DNA of 20,459 nt from a virus, in IMG/VR virus record IMGVR_UViG_3300012006_000040, positions 1 through 20,459 of that record. The stretch is one strand, 5' to 3'. The translations under genes and the position numbers were made by a program. The notes beneath the pieces are model-generated. The model saw only the letters and a program-made list of their open reading frames with translations, had not been told where the DNA came from and searched no databases. This document shows, one piece after another, positions 4,195 to 17,562 of this stretch; positions within the stretch are counted from its first letter, which is position 1; each line of letters starts with the position of its first letter.

Positions 4195-4560
4195 ATGAAA
4201 GACTTTTTATTATATGTAGCTTATGGGGTATTATTGTGGATACTATTCATAGTTTTTTCTATGCCTGTCTATTCTACTACGGGTATTAACTCTGATGAGA
4301 TTAAAGAGTTCTCTATAAAGACTCCACCGGGTGAAATAGTATTAACAAGAGAACCTTGCGAATATATAAAGATGGGTGTAAAGGATTATCCTTATGTGGC
4401 TTACGCTGTTCAAAAAGGTTACCCTCATGTTGAAGGTTGTTGGACTATGGACATTATAGATAGGTTCAAAGCTGTTAAAGTATATTTTCCTCAAACTAAG
4501 TCTATCGAATACTATAACCCTTCGCTATTTGAACCTCGTTTAACTAAACCTAGCCTATGA
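4195..4560 (+). CDS. Membrane-anchored or exported protein, unknown function
   Basis: This is a 121-residue protein with an N-terminal hydrophobic segment (about residues 4-26, LLYVAYGVLLWILFIVFSM) that could be a signal anchor or uncleaved signal peptide. The rest is about 95 polar residues containing two cysteines (EPCEY and EGCWT) that could form a disulfide outside the cytoplasm. I do not recognise a family. Its start lies directly downstream of a TATAAT with no Shine-Dalgarno. Its stop overlaps the start of the SprT-like gene by 4 bases (ATGA), so the two form a pair. It is the first plus-strand gene next to the divergent packaging operon. An envelope role such as superinfection exclusion or lysis timing is possible but not shown. 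Confidence 0.65.
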   Translation: MKDFLLYVAYGVLLWILFIVFSMPVYSTTGINSDEIKEFSIKTPPGEIVLTREPCEYIKMGVKDYPYVAYAVQKGYPHVEGCWTMDIIDRFKAVKVYFPQTKSIEYYNPSLFEPRLTKPSL

Positions 4561-4901
4561 AAACTACGTTGACCAAGAAGAATCTTGAGATACTATACAA
4601 CATGGCCTGTCAAATGGCACCTTTTAATACCCTACCTATGCCTAAGTCGCGCAAAGTCAAGTTCAAAGTGATTAAGAACCCAGATATATACGGTTGTTTT
4701 GATGAAGAAGAGATGGAGATTCAAATAAGTTCTAATGCATGTGGCCACTTTACCACTATTTTTCAGACATTGCTCCATGAAATGGTACACTTAGCTCTCT
4801 ATGTTAGGGGTGATGATGACTTTCATGAGCATGGTGCCAAGTTTCTTCGTATTAAAGCAGTCTACTCCGAGTTATACAACTTCGATCCCAAGGCAATCTA
4901 G
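4557..4901 (+). CDS. SprT-like zinc metalloprotein
   Basis: The 114-residue protein carries HEMVH (74-78), a zincin HExxH motif, followed by EHGAKF with a likely third ligand H92. This arrangement is typical of SprT/Spartan-like domains. Cellular SprT-family members act on DNA-protein crosslinks; the role of small phage versions is not established. The protein is only the catalytic core, without the C-terminal zinc ribbon seen in many bacterial SprT proteins. It is coupled by ATGA to the upstream membrane protein and is followed by a noncoding region with a terminator-like inverted repeat. Domain identity is fairly secure; the substrate is unknown. Confidence 0.75.
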   Translation: MKTTLTKKNLEILYNMACQMAPFNTLPMPKSRKVKFKVIKNPDIYGCFDEEEMEIQISSNACGHFTTIFQTLLHEMVHLALYVRGDDDFHEHGAKFLRIKAVYSELYNFDPKAI

Positions 4902-4951: not shown

Positions 4952-5110
4952 ACCCTAACTTTCTGATATTTCAGGATTTTTTTATAAAAATTTTTTTACA
5001 ACGCCCTTTATTTGAGTGACGGGGGGTGTTTCCTATAGATTTTGTATTTTTTGCCTACTATTTGTACAAGTTTAAGTGTAAACAGAGTCCACGGAGTCCC
5101 AACTAAATTT

Positions 5111-5133
5111 GGGGGGGTTGGGTACGGGTGGGG
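5111..5133 (+). other. G-quadruplex-forming motif
   Basis: Four G-runs of 7, 3, 3 and 4 (5111-5117, 5120-5122, 5126-5128, 5130-5133) are separated by short loops TT, TAC and T. This satisfies the standard G3+N1-7 pattern on the plus strand. It sits 7 bases upstream of the phased GTCCA array in an otherwise AT-rich genome. Confidence 0.6.
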
Positions 5134-5140
5134 TTGCGAA

Positions 5141-5230
5141 GTCCACTAAGTCAAAACCAAGTCCAATTTTGTCCAACTTTGTCCTTTTCTGCGTCACTTC
5201 GTCCAACTAAGTCCAACTGCGTCCACTAAG
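5141..5230 (+). repeat. GTCCAACTNN repeats on a 10-bp pitch
   Basis: Nine consecutive 10-base steps start at 5141. Clear units are GTCCACTAAG (5141), GTCCAATTTT (5161), GTCCAACTTT (5171), GTCCAACTAA (5201), GTCCAACTGC (5211) and GTCCACTAAG (5221); 5181 keeps GTCC, and 5151 and 5191 are degenerate. The first and last units are identical. Two further GTCC words lie at 5087 and 5096. The pitch places every unit on nearly the same face of the helix, as expected for cooperative protein binding. Ten is not a multiple of three, so a protein repeat does not explain it. Confidence 0.7.
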
Positions 5231-5278
5231 TAAGCCCCGACATAACCAAGCCCGACCACGTTTGACCACGTTGATAAT

Positions 5279-5358
5279 GTTCCCACTTCGTTTGACTTTG
5301 TTCCCGTAATTGTTCCCACTTAAATACTTGATTAATAAGGAATGTTCCCTGTTCCCAC
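5279..5358 (+). repeat. Cluster of GTTCCCAC words (left half of opposed repeats)
   Basis: GTTCCCAC occurs at 5279-5286, 5312-5319 and 5351-5358, with variants GTTCCCGT at 5300-5307 and GTTCCCTG at 5344-5351. All are in the same orientation. The reverse complement, GTGGGAAC, recurs at 5461 and 5590 on the far side of a G-run, so the two clusters face each other. Confidence 0.65.
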
Positions 5359-5454
5359 TGTTTTCACATAGGGGGTGGGGGGTAGATTTGGAAAACTTTG
5401 TTTGGCTTCGTGTCACTACGCAAGTGTAAAAAGCCCCGCAGTTATCACTATGCG

Positions 5455-5477
5455 TCACAAGTGGGAACATGGGAACA
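5455..5477 (+). repeat. 23-bp direct repeat, copy 1 (contains GTGGGAAC ATGGGAAC)
   Basis: This copy is identical over 23 bases to 5584-5606. It contains two 8-base words in tandem, GTGGGAAC (5461-5468) and ATGGGAAC (5469-5476), the reverse complement of the words at 5279-5358. An AT-rich tract follows directly. Confidence 0.75.
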
Positions 5478-5524
5478 ATCACATAATAATAATAATAAAT
5501 AAATATAATATATATATAAAACAA
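5478..5524. other. AT-rich tract, candidate DNA-unwinding element
   Basis: About 47 bases are made almost only of A and T, with TAA/AAT triplets and a TATATATA run. The tract follows repeat copy 1 directly and lies 59 bases before copy 2. Placement between iteron-like repeats is typical of origin melting elements, but no experiment or homology supports this yet. Confidence 0.45.
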
Positions 5525-5583
5525 CAACTTAGGAACATCAAACCAAGTCAAAAACCTTGTTCCCCGTAATAATGAGTATAGTT

Positions 5584-5606
5584 TCACAAGTGGGAACATG
5601 GGAACA
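5584..5606 (+). repeat. 23-bp direct repeat, copy 2
   Basis: This is a perfect second copy of 5455-5477, starting 129 bases downstream, with GTGGGAAC at 5590-5597 and ATGGGAAC at 5598-5605. A lone GGAAC at 5532 and a GTTCCCCGT at 5559-5567 lie between the copies. Confidence 0.75.
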
Positions 5607-5725
5607 TCAATTAAATCAAGCACTTACGAAATAAACACCCCGAAACCCTTACTTTTTTAAACTTGGTACGTTTATTAGATAGCAACACCGAACGAAGTTA
5701 AACATTATTAAACGAAAGGCACTAT

Positions 5726-5896
5726 ATGAACAGAGCAAACTTAACAGGACTTTATATCACTTGGCTTTTAACCACGTTAAACGCAATCTTAGGCTTCACT
5801 ACTATGAACACCACGCCCGACTTAGCTATTACCTTTTTTATCGGGGCTTTTATATCGTTGATACTATTTTGGACGTGTCTTTTTAATCGGGGCTAA
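5726..5896 (+). CDS. Small two-helix membrane protein
   Basis: The ORF encodes 56 residues with two predicted membrane helices: about residues 7-24 (TGLYITWLLTTLNAILGF) and 34-52 (AITFFIGAFISLILFWTC). A short Thr/Asn-rich turn separates them. An AAAGG Shine-Dalgarno lies 8 bases before the ATG. It is the first gene after the repeat-rich region and is followed by a good terminator, so it appears to be transcribed alone. A two-helix protein of this size could be a holin or a superinfection-exclusion factor, but the endolysin is 8 kb away and nothing specific is recognisable. Confidence 0.65.
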   Translation: MNRANLTGLYITWLLTTLNAILGFTTMNTTPDLAITFFIGAFISLILFWTCLFNRG

Positions 5897-5920
5897 GTCG
5901 CAATCGGTCGCAAACTAGGT

Positions 5921-5958
5921 AAGGGGGGCTTGGCATGGTTTTTGCTTAGCCCCTTTTT
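5921..5958 (+). terminator. Rho-independent terminator
   Basis: GGGGCT (5925-5930) pairs with AGCCCC (5948-5953) around a 17-base loop that can itself pair through GC/GC. Five T residues follow (5954-5958). It closes the 56-residue membrane-protein gene. Confidence 0.7.
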
Positions 5959-6049
5959 ATTTAAATCAAAAATAAATTACACAAACGTTAAAAACTGAAC
6001 TAAAATCGCTCTTAGTAGTAAAATCTTAAACTTTTAAGGGGTATCAACC

Positions 6050-6196
6050 ATGGCAACACGTCAAACACTTACAAACGAACTCAACGAAGTAGGCTATACA
6101 AACTTAGACCAACTGAGCGACACCGAACTAGAAAACTTATTTCAAACCGAATTAAAAAAAGCATACGCAGTACTAACCAACTCAACAACTAACTAA
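6050..6196 (+). CDS. Small hypothetical protein (48 aa)
   Basis: The 48-residue ORF starts at an ATG with AAGGGG 10 bases upstream. The protein is helical and mildly acidic (YTNLDQLSDTELENLFQTEL), with no Cys and no membrane segment. I do not recognise it. It opens the run of same-strand genes after the 5921-5958 terminator and ends 13 bases before the next gene. The upstream AT-rich stretch (5959-6035) has TAAAAT hexamers at 6001 and 6019 that could serve as a -10 box, but no good -35 pairs with them. Confidence 0.55.
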   Translation: MATRQTLTNELNEVGYTNLDQLSDTELENLFQTELKKAYAVLTNSTTN

Positions 6197-6209
6197 GGAC
6201 ACACAAACC

Positions 6210-6602
6210 ATGGAAAACTTAAACCTATCAACAGAAGCACAACGCTTTGACCAAATAGAAAAACTACGCAACGAAATACGCCCGACAAAATCCTATCAAG
6301 TCACACACGCACCACAGGGCAAGACATTTTTTGACGAAGCCAACGGGGGAAGCATTACAATCAACGGGCACCCCATAAGTGTCAAATACTTTTATCAAGC
6401 AACGCCCCACGATATGAAACAAACAGAAAACTACGCCCGAGAATTAGAAAACAATCTAAGAGCCGAACACGCAATTAAACACGGCACAACTCACACCCCG
6501 AGCGTGTTGGACTTAATCGCATCAACTCAAATCAACCAAGCATTAAACGATTTAATCACACGAGAACAAAACGAAGGGGAAGCAAACCATGAGAATGACT
6601 AG
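6210..6602 (+). CDS. Hypothetical protein (130 aa)
   Basis: This is a soluble 130-residue protein without Cys or membrane segments. The N-terminal 25 residues are helical. A beta-type middle follows (KTFFDEANGGSITINGHPIS, about 48-67), and the C-terminal half is helical. No family is recognised. GGAC in the short gap before the ATG is a weak ribosome site. Its end overlaps the next small membrane ORF by 14 bases. Codon use is typical of this module: many NNC endings (AAC, GAC, CAC) and GGG glycine. Confidence 0.7.
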   Translation: MENLNLSTEAQRFDQIEKLRNEIRPTKSYQVTHAPQGKTFFDEANGGSITINGHPISVKYFYQATPHDMKQTENYARELENNLRAEHAIKHGTTHTPSVLDLIASTQINQALNDLITREQNEGEANHEND

Positions 6603-6753
6603 ACTAGAAAAGAGATATGAACAGCTAGAACGCATAAGACAAATGAAACACCAACAGGACATGGACGGCTTTATGATAGGGCTAGGCATACTCGGGGGAA
6701 CACTTCTCGGGTGTATGATTATGGCTTTAATTATGGGGGGGTATTTAATATGA
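6589..6753 (+). CDS. Small single-pass membrane protein A (54 aa)
   Basis: The 54 residues comprise a charged N-terminal helix (TRLEKRYEQLERIRQMKHQQ, about 4-23) and one long hydrophobic segment (about 28-54) ending ALIMGGYLI. This suggests a single-pass protein with a cytoplasmic charged head. The start overlaps the preceding gene by 14 bases (AAGGGGAAG upstream acts as ribosome site) and the stop overlaps the next gene as ATGA. Its LIMGG tail is shared with the next ORF. Function is unknown. Confidence 0.6.
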   Translation: MRMTRLEKRYEQLERIRQMKHQQDMDGFMIGLGILGGTLLGCMIMALIMGGYLI

Positions 6754-6845
6754 GTATTTTCAAGGGCGTCATGTATTTAATCTTTTTAATTTGGTGTTTA
6801 TTTTCTTTTTGGTGCTTTTTAACTTTAATCATGGGGGGCTTTTAA
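6750..6845 (+). CDS. Tiny membrane protein B (31 aa)
   Basis: This 31-residue, almost entirely hydrophobic peptide has Phe, Trp and Leu through its length and two Cys, and ends TLIMGGF. It is coupled to the preceding ORF by ATGA and stops one base before the next ATG. The last codons double as a G-run ribosome site for the 553-residue protein. It could be real or could serve only to couple translation. The shared LIMGG tail with its neighbour suggests a local duplication. Confidence 0.5.
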   Translation: MSIFKGVMYLIFLIWCLFSFWCFLTLIMGGF

Positions 6846-6846
6846 T

Positions 6847-8508
6847 ATGTTGAATACATACCAACTCAACGCAGTTAGAAACTTGGTGCGACCAATTACG
6901 CCCCACTTAATCACGCTGAACCGACTAATCCAATACAACGAGGGGGAACCCTACGAAGTAAAAGAGCAATTAAAGGCACAATTAAGAGCAGATGCAAAAC
7001 AAAGCCGTTATAGATACGACTTCAATCAGAAAGCAACGGCGAGGGAATTTAAACTTAACGGGCACAATCTCGCAATAGAACGGGCGAAAGTAAAAGACGC
7101 TAGGAAAGCGTCCCCCGATAGCGTCATAGAATATATAGACTACATCACGCACTACTTACGGGACGATATACTAAAAAGAGTAGAGCCCCGAGTTTTAGAC
7201 ATAAGAGAAAAATTCAAAACGGGCGAGTGGGAAAAATTAGATTGGCAAAAGTACGGACTGAATGAGCCCGACAAACTAAGACGCTTGAATAGTCTTTTCT
7301 CACTTCATAACGTCCACTACTCAATCATAAGCCCCATGTTAATCGCTTACTATCCAAACTTAGAACACTTCAGACAAGGGCGAGAAGTACGCACCAAGCT
7401 AGGAAAATATCTCACTCAATTTAAAGAACAAACAGAGCTCACAGACTTGGAAATTAAAAGCATAACCGAAGCACACACAGCACGGGTACAAGCACAGCAA
7501 GGGTGGGAAGTACGTTTTATTGATAGCACCGACAGCACAGGGTGGGTGAATATCTACGGACAAGGCGAACGTTTTAATTCATGTATGACCAACAGCAAAT
7601 CCGTCCAAGTGTACGCACACGAAAAGAGCGTTTTAAAATTGGCTTATATGTTAGAGGGGGGCTTAGTCATAGCCCGTGCAATAGTACGAACTCAAAATAA
7701 TTGGGACGATACGGGGGACGCATCAAAGGGATATATAAGAATTTACCCAGACGCTAACGGACACGCCGAGGGACGATTTTTAAAAGACACACTAAGAAAT
7801 CTAGGTTATGAATATCAAACAAACTTAAACGGGTGTTTATTAAAAGCGATACCACACGAAAACGAGGACGGCGTTTATATGGCACCTTATATTGACTACG
7901 GGAACGGGGGCGATCAAACAGGCGAACCCGAAAACATAGACGGCAAAACATACATAGTCATAGGTCATGGCGAATATGATCTAGCAAACACGGGGGGCTG
8001 GACGTCCAACGTTGAGAAGTTTTCTTGTGACGATTGCGGGGACGAAGTGGACGAGGACGAAATAGAATACGTTGAGGACGCAGACCGACATATTTGCAAC
8101 GGGTGCCTTGAGAATGATTACACTTACGCCATAGGCAGACGGGGTGACGAGTATTATGTTTATAGTGACAACGCCATTCTTGTAGGTGATGATTATTACG
8201 ACGTCAATTATTTAAGTGATAACGATATTTACCTTTGTGAAGCGTCAGACAATTATTATCACATGGACGACTTAGTAAATACTTCAAGGGGTTTAATACA
8301 TCAAGACTACGCACAGGCACTTGACCACGAGGACAGCGAGGGCAACAGCTACGCACACGAGAACGACGCACACCAACTGAGTGACGGGACTTGGTGCCAT
8401 GAGGACGACGCCGACGAACTACAAGAAAAGATTGACGCAGAGAACGAGGACGAGGACGAAACCGAAACACAACCAACAACACAAGGGGCAACAAATGAAA
8501 ACAACTAA
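6847..8508 (+). CDS. Large zinc-ribbon protein, unknown function (553 aa)
   Basis: This is the second-largest plus-strand gene here. Residues 1-215 are helical and basic. Residues 219-335 form a beta-rich domain with FNSCMTNSKSVQVYAHEKSV (243-262) and GGLVIARAIVRTQ (271-283). This resembles an uncharacterised phage family with a conserved SCM segment and a following 'ARAIV' strand, faintly like PcfJ-type proteins; that is memory only. A treble-clef or zinc-ribbon-like Cys set follows (CDDC 394-397, CNGC 417-420), then an acidic repetitive region rich in Asp, Tyr and His, and a strongly acidic tail (520-545). The start has a G-run ribosome site. It overlaps the peptidase gene by 14 bases. The acidic tail could mimic DNA or be a flexible tether. 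Confidence 0.75.
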   Translation: MLNTYQLNAVRNLVRPITPHLITLNRLIQYNEGEPYEVKEQLKAQLRADAKQSRYRYDFNQKATAREFKLNGHNLAIERAKVKDARKASPDSVIEYIDYITHYLRDDILKRVEPRVLDIREKFKTGEWEKLDWQKYGLNEPDKLRRLNSLFSLHNVHYSIISPMLIAYYPNLEHFRQGREVRTKLGKYLTQFKEQTELTDLEIKSITEAHTARVQAQQGWEVRFIDSTDSTGWVNIYGQGERFNSCMTNSKSVQVYAHEKSVLKLAYMLEGGLVIARAIVRTQNNWDDTGDASKGYIRIYPDANGHAEGRFLKDTLRNLGYEYQTNLNGCLLKAIPHENEDGVYMAPYIDYGNGGDQTGEPENIDGKTYIVIGHGEYDLANTGGWTSNVEKFSCDDCGDEVDEDEIEYVEDADRHICNGCLENDYTYAIGRRGDEYYVYSDNAILVGDDYYDVNYLSDNDIYLCEASDNYYHMDDLVNTSRGLIHQDYAQALDHEDSEGNSYAHENDAHQLSDGTWCHEDDADELQEKIDAENEDEDETETQPTTQGATNENN

Positions 8509-9592
8509 ACAAAACGAAACACTACGCAACACGCTTTTAAATATTTTATCAATCAGACGCCAACACGGCACGAAAGGCGAAGCGTATTTTATAGAAACGT
8601 ATCTATCAGACGGGGACGTTCAACAACTCAAGAACGAAACGGGCGAGGTTATAGCCTACTATATAGACAACAGAAAAGAGAACAGCACAGCGAATACAAC
8701 ATTATGGTCATGCCACATTGACACCATGCACAACTCAGAGCCCGACAAGATAAAACAAGAAGTTTATTGTGATGACTTCGGGACGGCTTTCGTTGATGAG
8801 AAATCAGACTGCCTTGGTGCAGATGACGGGGCAGGGGCTTTTCTTTTATTGGAAATGATACAGGCTAACATTGGGGGCGTATATGTATTCCACAGGGGCG
8901 AGGAAAGAGGGTGTTGGGGTAGTAAGCAAGTGGCGACACTTTACGGCGATTTTATAAAACAATTTAATCATGCCATAGCCTTTGACAGACGGGGCACCAC
9001 GTCAGTAATTACACACCAAATGGGTGAGAGGGCTTCAAGTGATACTTGTTCAAATGCGATCGCTTCGCTTCTCGGCATGGGGTACGAATTAGACGACACG
9101 GGACTATTCACAGACACGGCACAATACATGGAACAGGTGAGCGAGTGCCTAAACATATCAATAGGCTATCAATCAGAACACAGCAACAAAGAAACCCTAG
9201 ACACCGACCACGTTTTGAAACTACGGGACAAAGTACTAGCGATTAAGTGGGACGAGATAACCCTACCCCACGAACGTGACTACACCAAGGTGGAATTTAA
9301 ACAGGGCTACGGCTCAACGTGGGGGGCTAATGATTATTACGGCATAGGGTCAAGCCCCGTTATTGATGAGCTCTACGCTAAAGACTATAAGGGCTTATTA
9401 AATTGGATTAAGACAGCACACCCCGAGGACATAGCCGACGCTATAAGCGAACTCTTAGACGTCTATGCTTATTCAATGGACGCCGAATATAACGCCTATA
9501 ATGAGCCCTACTACAACACTTTAAACCCTAACCCCGTGCATGAGTGGGACGACTACAACCACGAACTAGAACACGGACACGAACGCACCTAA
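8495..9592 (+). CDS. M20/M42-type zinc metallopeptidase-like protein
   Basis: The 365-residue protein has the dinuclear-zinc aminopeptidase pattern: SCHIDT (H74, D76), LGADDGAG (D110/D111), HRGEERG (E136, E137), AFDRRG (D164) and YQSEHSNKE (H229). These correspond to the metal ligands and catalytic carboxylate of the M20/M28/M42 clan, and the GADDGAG/EE pairing recalls PepT. Such enzymes release N-terminal residues or split di- and tripeptides; some members act on other amides. I chose the ATG at 8495, 38 codons inside the longest frame, because AAGGGG lies upstream and the longer form would overlap the previous gene by 128 bases. All ligands are present, so it is probably active. A terminator follows. 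Confidence 0.75.
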   Translation: MKTTKQNETLRNTLLNILSIRRQHGTKGEAYFIETYLSDGDVQQLKNETGEVIAYYIDNRKENSTANTTLWSCHIDTMHNSEPDKIKQEVYCDDFGTAFVDEKSDCLGADDGAGAFLLLEMIQANIGGVYVFHRGEERGCWGSKQVATLYGDFIKQFNHAIAFDRRGTTSVITHQMGERASSDTCSNAIASLLGMGYELDDTGLFTDTAQYMEQVSECLNISIGYQSEHSNKETLDTDHVLKLRDKVLAIKWDEITLPHERDYTKVEFKQGYGSTWGANDYYGIGSSPVIDELYAKDYKGLLNWIKTAHPEDIADAISELLDVYAYSMDAEYNAYNEPYYNTLNPNPVHEWDDYNHELEHGHERT

Positions 9593-15696: not shown

Positions 15697-17562
15697 ATGC
15701 AACTTATAACGCTTGACTTTGAAACATTTTATGATACAGGATACTCACTCTCAGGACTTACAACAGAAGAATATATTAGAGACCCGCGCTTCGAGGTTAT
15801 CGGAGTAGGAGTAAAGATAGATGACGGCGATACTCATTGGTATACAGGTACTCATGATGAAATTAAAGCTAGGTTACAAAGCTATGATTGGGACGATTCT
15901 ATGTTGCTCTGCCACAATACCCAATTTGATGGCGGAATTCTTTCTTTCGTATTTAATATTATTCCTAATGTATATTTTGATACTCTTGGTATGGCTCGTG
16001 CCATTCATGGTGTAGATGCAGGTGGTAGCTTAGCCGCCCTCGTTGAACGATATGAGTTAGGTGCTAAAGGTACAGAAGTAGTAGAGGCTAAAGGTAAACG
16101 CAGACTTGACTTTGCTCACGATGATCTAGAACGTTATGGCTCTTATTGTAAGAATGACGTTGAATTAACCTATAAGCTTTTCTATGTATTAAATCCCATG
16201 TTCCCGCAAGAAGAATTAAAACTTATTGATTTAACCTTACGCATGTATACCATGCCCGTATTAGAAGTAGATGATGGCTTACTTATTGAACGATTAGAAG
16301 AAGTCAAGCTAGAAAAGTCACAGCTATTACAGGGTCTTATGGTTAAACTTGTATGTGAAACAGAAGAATGCGTCAGAGCAAAGCTTGCATCTAATAAACA
16401 ATTTGCAGAGATATTAACTGAGCTAGGCGTAGTTGTACCTACTAAAATAAGTCCTGCGACGGGTAAGGATACGTTTGCTTTAGCTAAAGGCGATGAGGGC
16501 TTCTTAGCTTTGATGGAGCATGAAGATCCGTTTATTCAACAATTATGCACAGTTAGGTTAGGTACTAAGTCAACCATAGAGGAGAGTAGAATTGAAAGGT
16601 TCATCGGTATTGGGGCGCGTAATAAGGGTAAGCTGCCTATTCCTCTTAAGTATTACGGCGCACATACGGGTCGATGGGCAGGCTCGGATAAAGTCAACTT
16701 CCAAAACTTACCAAGCCGAGATAAGAAAAAGAAAGCCTTAAAGAATGCAGTCATAGCACCAAGTGGTCACATAGTTATTAACTGTGACTCATCACAAATT
16801 GAAGCCCGAGTACTTACATGGATAGCGGGACAAGACGATGTTGTCCAATGGTACAAAGAGGGTCGAGATGTTTATTCAGAGTTTGCGAGTAAGGTATATG
16901 ATAGACCCATTACTAAAGACGATAAGACAGAACGCGCTGTAGGTAAGACTTGTATTCTTGGACTAGGGTATGGCACAGGCTGGCAGAAGTTACAACAGAC
17001 TTTAAAGATCGCTGCGAATACAGAGCTCGATGATCTAGAATGCCAAAGGTTAGTAAGAGTTTACCGCGAAGTTAATAATAAAGTGATTGAGTTTTGGCGT
17101 ACTTGTGACGAAGCCTTACATGATATATCTTCATGGCCGTACCAAAAAGAACCTTATTATCTAGATAAGAATAAAGCATTACTTGTAACGTCAAGAGGTA
17201 TTAAATTACCTAACGGACTTTATATACAATATCCCGGACTGACGTATGATACATCGGAAGCAAAGAGTCGGTTTACTTATAAATCTAGACGCGGTACTAT
17301 ATCCGTTTGGGGTGGGTCAGTAGTAGAGAATGTTATTCAAGCCTTAGCCCGTATTATTGTGGGTGAACAGATGATAGAGATTAATGATAAGTATCGCCCT
17401 GTATTAACTGTACATGATGCTGTAGTTTGTGTAGCTAAAAAAGATGACGCCGATAAAGCTAAAGATTTTATTATGGAGATCATGTCAAAACCACCGAAGT
17501 GGGCGGAAGGATTACCCGTAGCATGCGAAGCTAACTATGGAGAAAGCTATGGCGATTGTTGA
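15697..17562 (+). CDS. polA: Family A DNA polymerase with 3'-5' exonuclease
   Basis: This is the replicative polymerase of the phage. The DEDD exonuclease has LDFET (D7, E9), NTQFD (N74-D78) and YCKND (Y150, D154). The polymerase domain has motif A CDSSQIEAR (D364), motif B R413-AVG-K417-TCI-L421-GLG-Y425, and motif C TVHDA (H573, D574). There is no 5'-3' exonuclease domain, as usual for phage enzymes of about 620 residues. The residue equal to E. coli Phe762 is Leu421. Motif C has HDA rather than the common HDE. GAAAGAGA gives the ribosome site. The end overlaps the HNH gene by 14 bases. Confidence 0.95.
   Translation: MQLITLDFETFYDTGYSLSGLTTEEYIRDPRFEVIGVGVKIDDGDTHWYTGTHDEIKARLQSYDWDDSMLLCHNTQFDGGILSFVFNIIPNVYFDTLGMARAIHGVDAGGSLAALVERYELGAKGTEVVEAKGKRRLDFAHDDLERYGSYCKNDVELTYKLFYVLNPMFPQEELKLIDLTLRMYTMPVLEVDDGLLIERLEEVKLEKSQLLQGLMVKLVCETEECVRAKLASNKQFAEILTELGVVVPTKISPATGKDTFALAKGDEGFLALMEHEDPFIQQLCTVRLGTKSTIEESRIERFIGIGARNKGKLPIPLKYYGAHTGRWAGSDKVNFQNLPSRDKKKKALKNAVIAPSGHIVINCDSSQIEARVLTWIAGQDDVVQWYKEGRDVYSEFASKVYDRPITKDDKTERAVGKTCILGLGYGTGWQKLQQTLKIAANTELDDLECQRLVRVYREVNNKVIEFWRTCDEALHDISSWPYQKEPYYLDKNKALLVTSRGIKLPNGLYIQYPGLTYDTSEAKSRFTYKSRRGTISVWGGSVVENVIQALARIIVGEQMIEINDKYRPVLTVHDAVVCVAKKDDADKAKDFIMEIMSKPPKWAEGLPVACEANYGESYGDC

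Follow-up and report, generated by a model that had tools for sequence, protein, structure and literature searches.

The analyzed stretch of DNA (the window) is a virus record of 20,459 bases, which represents a genome fragment. About 800 bases between a SprT-like gene and a rightward operon are noncoding and contain an array of short tandem repeats. This array forms the outer arm of a module of ~500 bp, which recurs in nearly all genomes examined. Along this operon follow genes for an M28-type peptidase, an endonuclease, a family A DNA polymerase and a PD-(D/E)XK exonuclease, and the TerL/p207 genes are no more than about 1 kb away from the region. The following features were identified:

4557–4901, plus strand: SprT-like gene, neighbour of the module on its left by synteny
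4976–4998, plus strand: AT-rich tract, left edge of the noncoding element that is conserved downstream of the SprT-like gene; same tract in relatives
5111–5133, plus strand: G-quadruplex-like block rich in G, GGGGGGGTTGGGTACGGGTGGGG, which bounds the array on the left; also in array-less relatives
5141–5231, plus strand: array of GTCCAACTNN-like units with an ACYNNGT core at a pitch of ~10 bp
5232–5274, plus strand: array continued in degenerate form (ACCAAGC, ACCACGT, ACCACGT), a weaker pattern to about 5274
5279–5320, plus strand: left iteron set, GTTCCC at 5279, 5300 and 5312, degenerate GTTTGAC at 5290 (spacing 11, 10 and 12)
5321–5333, minus strand: exact match to the IHF consensus, AATCAAGTATTTA (consensus search)
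5343–5358, plus strand: direct iteron pair TGTTCCC, TGTTCCCAC
5366–5384, plus strand: second G-rich block, in a stem-loop of inverted iteron pairs (DNA fold z −3.56)
5462–5477, minus strand: inverted iteron pair TGGGAACATGGGAACA
5483–5522, no strand: AT-rich stretch, probable DNA unwinding element (A/T at 43 of 45 positions; blocks in relatives align with it)
5519–5531, plus strand: IHF-like site with one mismatch
5559–5564, plus strand: single iteron on the right side of the AT-rich stretch
5591–5607, minus strand: second inverted iteron pair TGGGAACATGGGAACA
5614–5626, plus strand: exact match to the IHF consensus, AATCAAGCACTTA
15697–17562, plus strand: family A DNA polymerase, rightward operon

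The cassette at 5726–9592 encodes p130, a 553-aa phrog_6980 protein and the M28-type peptidase, and its coding strand is unusually A/C-rich. The 553-aa protein was seen only in array-bearing relatives (G008, G025, G030 and others); it has diverged far more (41–46%) than the terminase has (84%). No relatives were gained when p553 was used to find them among viral contigs. The cultured terminase relatives HTVC027P, HTVC023P, 023Pt_psg01 and DSL-LC04 have about 50% identity and differ in the gene order around the terminase. Genomes of the relatives carry terminase and structural genes, and a tyrosine integrase was found in none of 23 records (the control search was positive in 14 of 14 genomes), for which reason the phages look virulent. 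In 84,980 bacterial and archaeal genomes, only two TerL-related loci were detected, both on contigs of 6–7 kb. In two relatives (G021, 65.8 kb; G024, 54.3 kb) the terminase is located near one contig end and the polymerase near the other, an order compatible with a map that is circular or circularly permuted.

Units starting with GTCC were found at positions 5141, 5161, 5171, 5181, 5201, 5211 and 5221 and units starting with GTC at 5150 and 5193. These seven GTCC and two GTC starts within 5141–5221 agree with the initial annotation, which had described units mostly beginning with GTCC, and the first and the last unit are identical (GTCCACTAAG), as stated there. The 10-base steps it reported hold for the mean register of 10 bp, whereas individual spacings vary between 8 and 12 bp (9, 11, 10, 10, 12, 8, 10, 10 and 9) with internal slips. 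The autocorrelation was compared to dinucleotide-preserving shuffles. For 5087–5230, the identity at lag 10 resulted in a z-score of 4.5 (p = 0.0005 across all lags from 2 to 40). For 5141–5231, the z-scores were 4.7, 4.4 and 4.3 at lags of 20, 40 and 10, respectively, and the top lag score was not matched by any lag from 2 to 40 in 2000 shuffles. The 10-bp repeat is thus real, and what actually recurs, about once per ten bases, is a core of ACYNNGT.

A start of the array at 5087, as proposed before, is too early. The GTCC at 5087 and 5096 are located 5′ of the G-rich block (5111–5133) and do not belong to the array, since they are part of a conserved element retained by relatives without an array. 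This noncoding element of ~150–200 bp (4976–5133) consists of the AT tract, GGGGGGTGTTT, ...GGAGTCCCAACT... and the G-quadruplex-like block. It is retained in most relatives, even where array and origin are located elsewhere, and is often directly followed by a TTGACA/TATCCT promoter there. The element could possibly be a pac site or a terminator.

Compared to the related contig L086, indels in the array include lengths that are not a multiple of three, and whole units of the window array are missing from L086. The array is therefore noncoding, as the initial annotation had claimed, and the 138-aa minus-strand ORF spanning it is a mechanical ORF. An RNA element was rejected, as no Rfam match was found and the array does not fold (fold z +0.67). 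Neither blastn searches for related DNA in phage and plasmid collections nor a megablast search of the whole window against phages resulted in a match. The pattern is that of a set of predicted binding sites, not of a structured RNA or a coding repeat.

For the comparison across relatives, terminase and SprT searches yielded about 160 related uncultured contigs and, from these, 100 non-redundant noncoding regions including that of the window, of which some may overlap in origin despite de-duplication. The array-type phages are uncultured phages from water and sediment. The same type of array was present in at least 22 related contigs (window included), so that its conservation could be confirmed. 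In the 22 contigs selected, the array is located 3′ of the same G-rich block and all 22 show an enrichment of the ACYNNGT core, with 4 to 11 copies versus about 0.3 to 1.1 expected; as these contigs were picked because an array was visible, 22 of 22 describes this set and is not a frequency.

The pitch is 10 bp in the window, L002 and L086, 9 bp in the GTTCA-type clade and 11 bp in most of the GTTACA clade. Strict phasing on one face of the helix is not conserved, since other relatives have a pitch of 9 or 11 bp. The binding of a protein to one helix face, suggested before, was therefore retained in part: repeated sites on noncoding DNA fit a protein-binding array, whereas the strict phasing is not kept. 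Among close relatives, the change per site was 0.043 for the C and 0.051 for the G of the core, 0.304 for the two N positions and 0.166 for the remaining positions. Thus, NN within ACYNNGT changes fastest and C and G change slowest. The NN dinucleotide is nonrandom: GC, TC, AA and AT dominate, whereas GG, CT, AG and GT are absent (125 cores from 13 arrays, which include close relatives).

To the right of the array, the module begins with the left iterons, a site with the IHF consensus (GTAAGTNNTTGATT in reverse) and a pair of iterons. These are followed by a G-rich stem-loop, an inverted pair, the AT-rich stretch and a second inverted pair, in this order. A second IHF site after the last inverted pair is usual among the relatives. 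The view that no named phage element is like the array therefore misses its context, as the array adjoins an iteron-origin-like module. GTTCCC/GGGAAC was found 10 times in the 500 bp of the window module versus 0.2 expected. The module is the densest repeat window of the window record, and the densest heptamer repeat in the genome for most of 15 records.

The iteron positions relative to the start of the AT-rich stretch (all left positions approximate) are −222/−211/−199 and −157/−149 on the plus strand and −30/−22 on the minus strand to its left, and near +80 on the plus strand and near +114/+123 on the minus strand to its right. This geometry is nearly constant in about 18 genomes, in which the iteron is GTTCCC, GTTCCA, GTTCTA, GTTCAT, GTTCAA, GTTACA, GTTACC or GTTGCC; the type per genome was assigned visually, based on printed sequences and k-mer counts, ahead of the geometry table. 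The spacing of the left iterons is similar in L108, G004 and G020 and amounts to ~10–12 bp across the genomes with a module. The layout is different in a more distant clade, whose iterons are GTAATTT or GTTATAA and which has five or more IHF-consensus sites. In this clade, the interval from the G-rich block to the origin encodes a protein of 206–230 aa that belongs to no known family (L115, 6735–7397, with homologues in G009, G017, G019 and G021; L099 is similar-looking).

In 15 modules, 45 IHF-consensus sites were found versus 1.35 in shuffles (maximum 6). Their density is 3.73 per kb in the modules and 0.16 per kb elsewhere, a difference of about 23 times. The site in the phages is narrower than the IHF consensus (ACTTA kept), and a protein other than IHF may therefore bind there. 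No DnaA box (TTATNCACA) is present at the module of the window, the nearest match being at 16543, and one TTATCCACA was found near the AT-rich stretch of G007. In most larger genomes the cumulative GC skew reaches its minimum at the module or no more than a few kb away, a signal that is confounded by divergent gene orientation.

A DUF927 protein is encoded in 19 of 23 records, namely in every record above 40 kb and in no shorter fragment. At the family level it matches primases and primase-helicases, and its PDB hits are a protein of a pathogenicity island and a helicase of SCC (8tch, 3.6e-7; 5dgk, 3.1e-6, and 9.7e-9 in another search). By synteny, the DUF927 gene of the window phage is expected some kilobases past the right end. 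In G001 the module (9.3–9.8 kb) and the DUF927 gene (28.6–31.5 kb) are some 20 kb apart. The DUF927-containing Cch is a relative of the SaPIbov1 Rep helicase, and SaPI Rep binds iterons via its C-terminal domain (PMC7581432). In the phage DUF927 proteins, few parts are less conserved than the C-terminal end. For the iteron type, one C-terminal window of 18 gave a nominal association (partial r 0.21, p 0.013, uncorrected), and N-terminal windows performed equally well. A gene-by-gene search for a protein that tracks the iteron type gave no clear winner, the best candidate being a small gene present in 9 genomes with a partial r of 0.41.

A 117-aa helix-turn-helix protein (L167, 8213–8566) with a conserved recognition helix VSRMxIHSWFRG has a homologue in 18 genomes, and its gene is located directly upstream of the DUF927 primase-helicase gene in G001. 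As initiator this small protein fits poorly, since the region of its recognition helix is conserved while the iterons change.

Taken together, the module is best read as a Pri-Rep-ori-like origin, and the call as a putative replication origin is well supported. The DUF927 protein is probably the initiator. With moderate confidence, the array is considered the outer (left) arm of this iteron-type origin. From the anatomy of the module and the relatives of its proteins, the following course of initiation can be proposed. The initiator, probably the DUF927 primase-helicase, would bind the iterons that flank the AT-rich stretch to the left and right, IHF would bend the DNA at the IHF-consensus sites, and the AT-rich stretch would melt and allow the helicase to load. 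The degenerate array would offer many weak, close sites, which could gather or nucleate the initiator beside the strong iterons; alternatively, it could titrate the initiator for copy control.

Most likely, the array provides weak auxiliary sites for the same initiator as the iterons, since, over large distances, array words and iteron class change together: GTCCA occurs with GTTCCC/GTGTCC, GTTCA with GTTCA, and GTAAA/GTTAT with GTTACA. This initiator would then bind the array as well. Nevertheless, the window, L002 and L086 have a common GTCCAAC array although the iteron types of the latter two differ from that of the window, so that the ligand of the array may be another than that of the iterons. 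The array is also not essential, because many relatives (L108, G020, G001 and others) keep the inner iterons and lack the long array.

It could also be speculated, with low confidence, that the array is a new accessory element of the origin. Here, a degenerate ACYNNGT landing strip would be occupied by a filament-forming phage protein that feeds the initiator or helicase to the unwinding site. The pitch would be fixed at 9, 10 or 11 bp per lineage, and the inner dinucleotide would be fast-changing and nonrandom.

A partition or centromere-like function, or another cooperative array, is unlikely. A small protein of the ribbon-helix-helix type would coat the 9–11 bp repeats, as ParR does on parC, and serve segregation, DNA organisation or autoregulation apart from the iteron initiator. 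Tandem direct repeats of this length resemble ParR sites (PMC9426499), and the array is the same in the window and L086 despite their differing inner iterons. However, no ParM/ParR-like gene was found among the annotated neighbours (Pfam scan, 20 window proteins), the phages look virulent, and over larger distances the array words shift with the iteron class.

Transcription control, with the array as a repressor- or activator-bound operator of the early rightward operon, appears improbable. The upstream position would fit, array-less relatives have a promoter-like TTGACA...TATCCT and a gene directly after the G-rich block, and repressor sites likewise switch specificity among relatives. An operator would leave the paired inverted iterons, their fixed spacing, the AT-rich stretch and the IHF sites unexplained, and the first downstream gene is several hundred bases away from the array. 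Quite improbable is also a packaging (pac) site, at which the small terminase would bind phased repeats. The proximity to TerL/p207 and the adjoining G-rich element, which is conserved even without an array, would be in agreement with it, but many relatives keep their terminase genes with no array near them, which makes the array a poor pac candidate, and the G-rich element is the better one. Arm-type sites of integrases are short tandem repeats and the attP of lambda also has IHF sites, but an attP is extremely improbable given the lack of a tyrosine integrase in the 23 records and the presence of only two TerL-related loci, on short contigs, among the cellular genomes.

Under the favoured reading of the array as part of an iteron-type origin, the region would be of wider use, as origins of uncultured phages are rarely located. 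Constant spacing combined with a switching recognition sequence would represent a natural series of origin specificities, which could be paired with a primase-helicase. Moreover, geometry instead of sequence could locate origins in other environmental phages.

Among known systems, parC centromeres bound by ParR also have tandem direct repeats, with sites of 11 bp in R1 and 10 bp in pB171 (PMC9426499). In contrast, no par genes were recognised among the annotated neighbours here and the array is embedded in an origin-like module. Replication origins with iterons beside an AT-rich stretch and IHF sites have been described (PMC4980987). The iteron plasmids R6K gamma, pSC101, P1 and F share the iterons, the AT-rich unwinding region and, in some, the IHF sites (PMC4980987). 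They differ by direct repeats of 17–22 bp, compared to iterons of 7–8 bp in inverted pairs here; a DnaA box, common but not universal there, is missing at the window module, and no RepA/pi-type Rep was found. The satellite phage P4 has an ori/crr with the alpha primase-helicase. It is similar in the type of initiator, a primase-helicase with its own iterons, and differs in geometry, repeat sequence and genome context. P4 has been compared with the PICIs (PMC6092414).

PICI origins consist of an AT-rich region between two iteron sets (PMC6092414), which is the arrangement found here. Like the PICI/SaPI Pri-Rep-ori, the near-complete relatives encode a DUF927-type helicase with a primase region (PMC7581432), the gene being outside the window, and the iteron sequence varies between relatives. 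Unlike satellites with an integrase and a helper phage, these are large, apparently virulent phages with terminase, structural genes and their own family A polymerase and without tyrosine integrase. Whereas the SaPI origin adjoins rep, directly downstream, the distance is ~20 kb here (G001), and IHF sites, the extra 9–11 bp array and G-rich blocks are present in addition. The results thus suggest that the PICI-like iteron layout extends to large phages.
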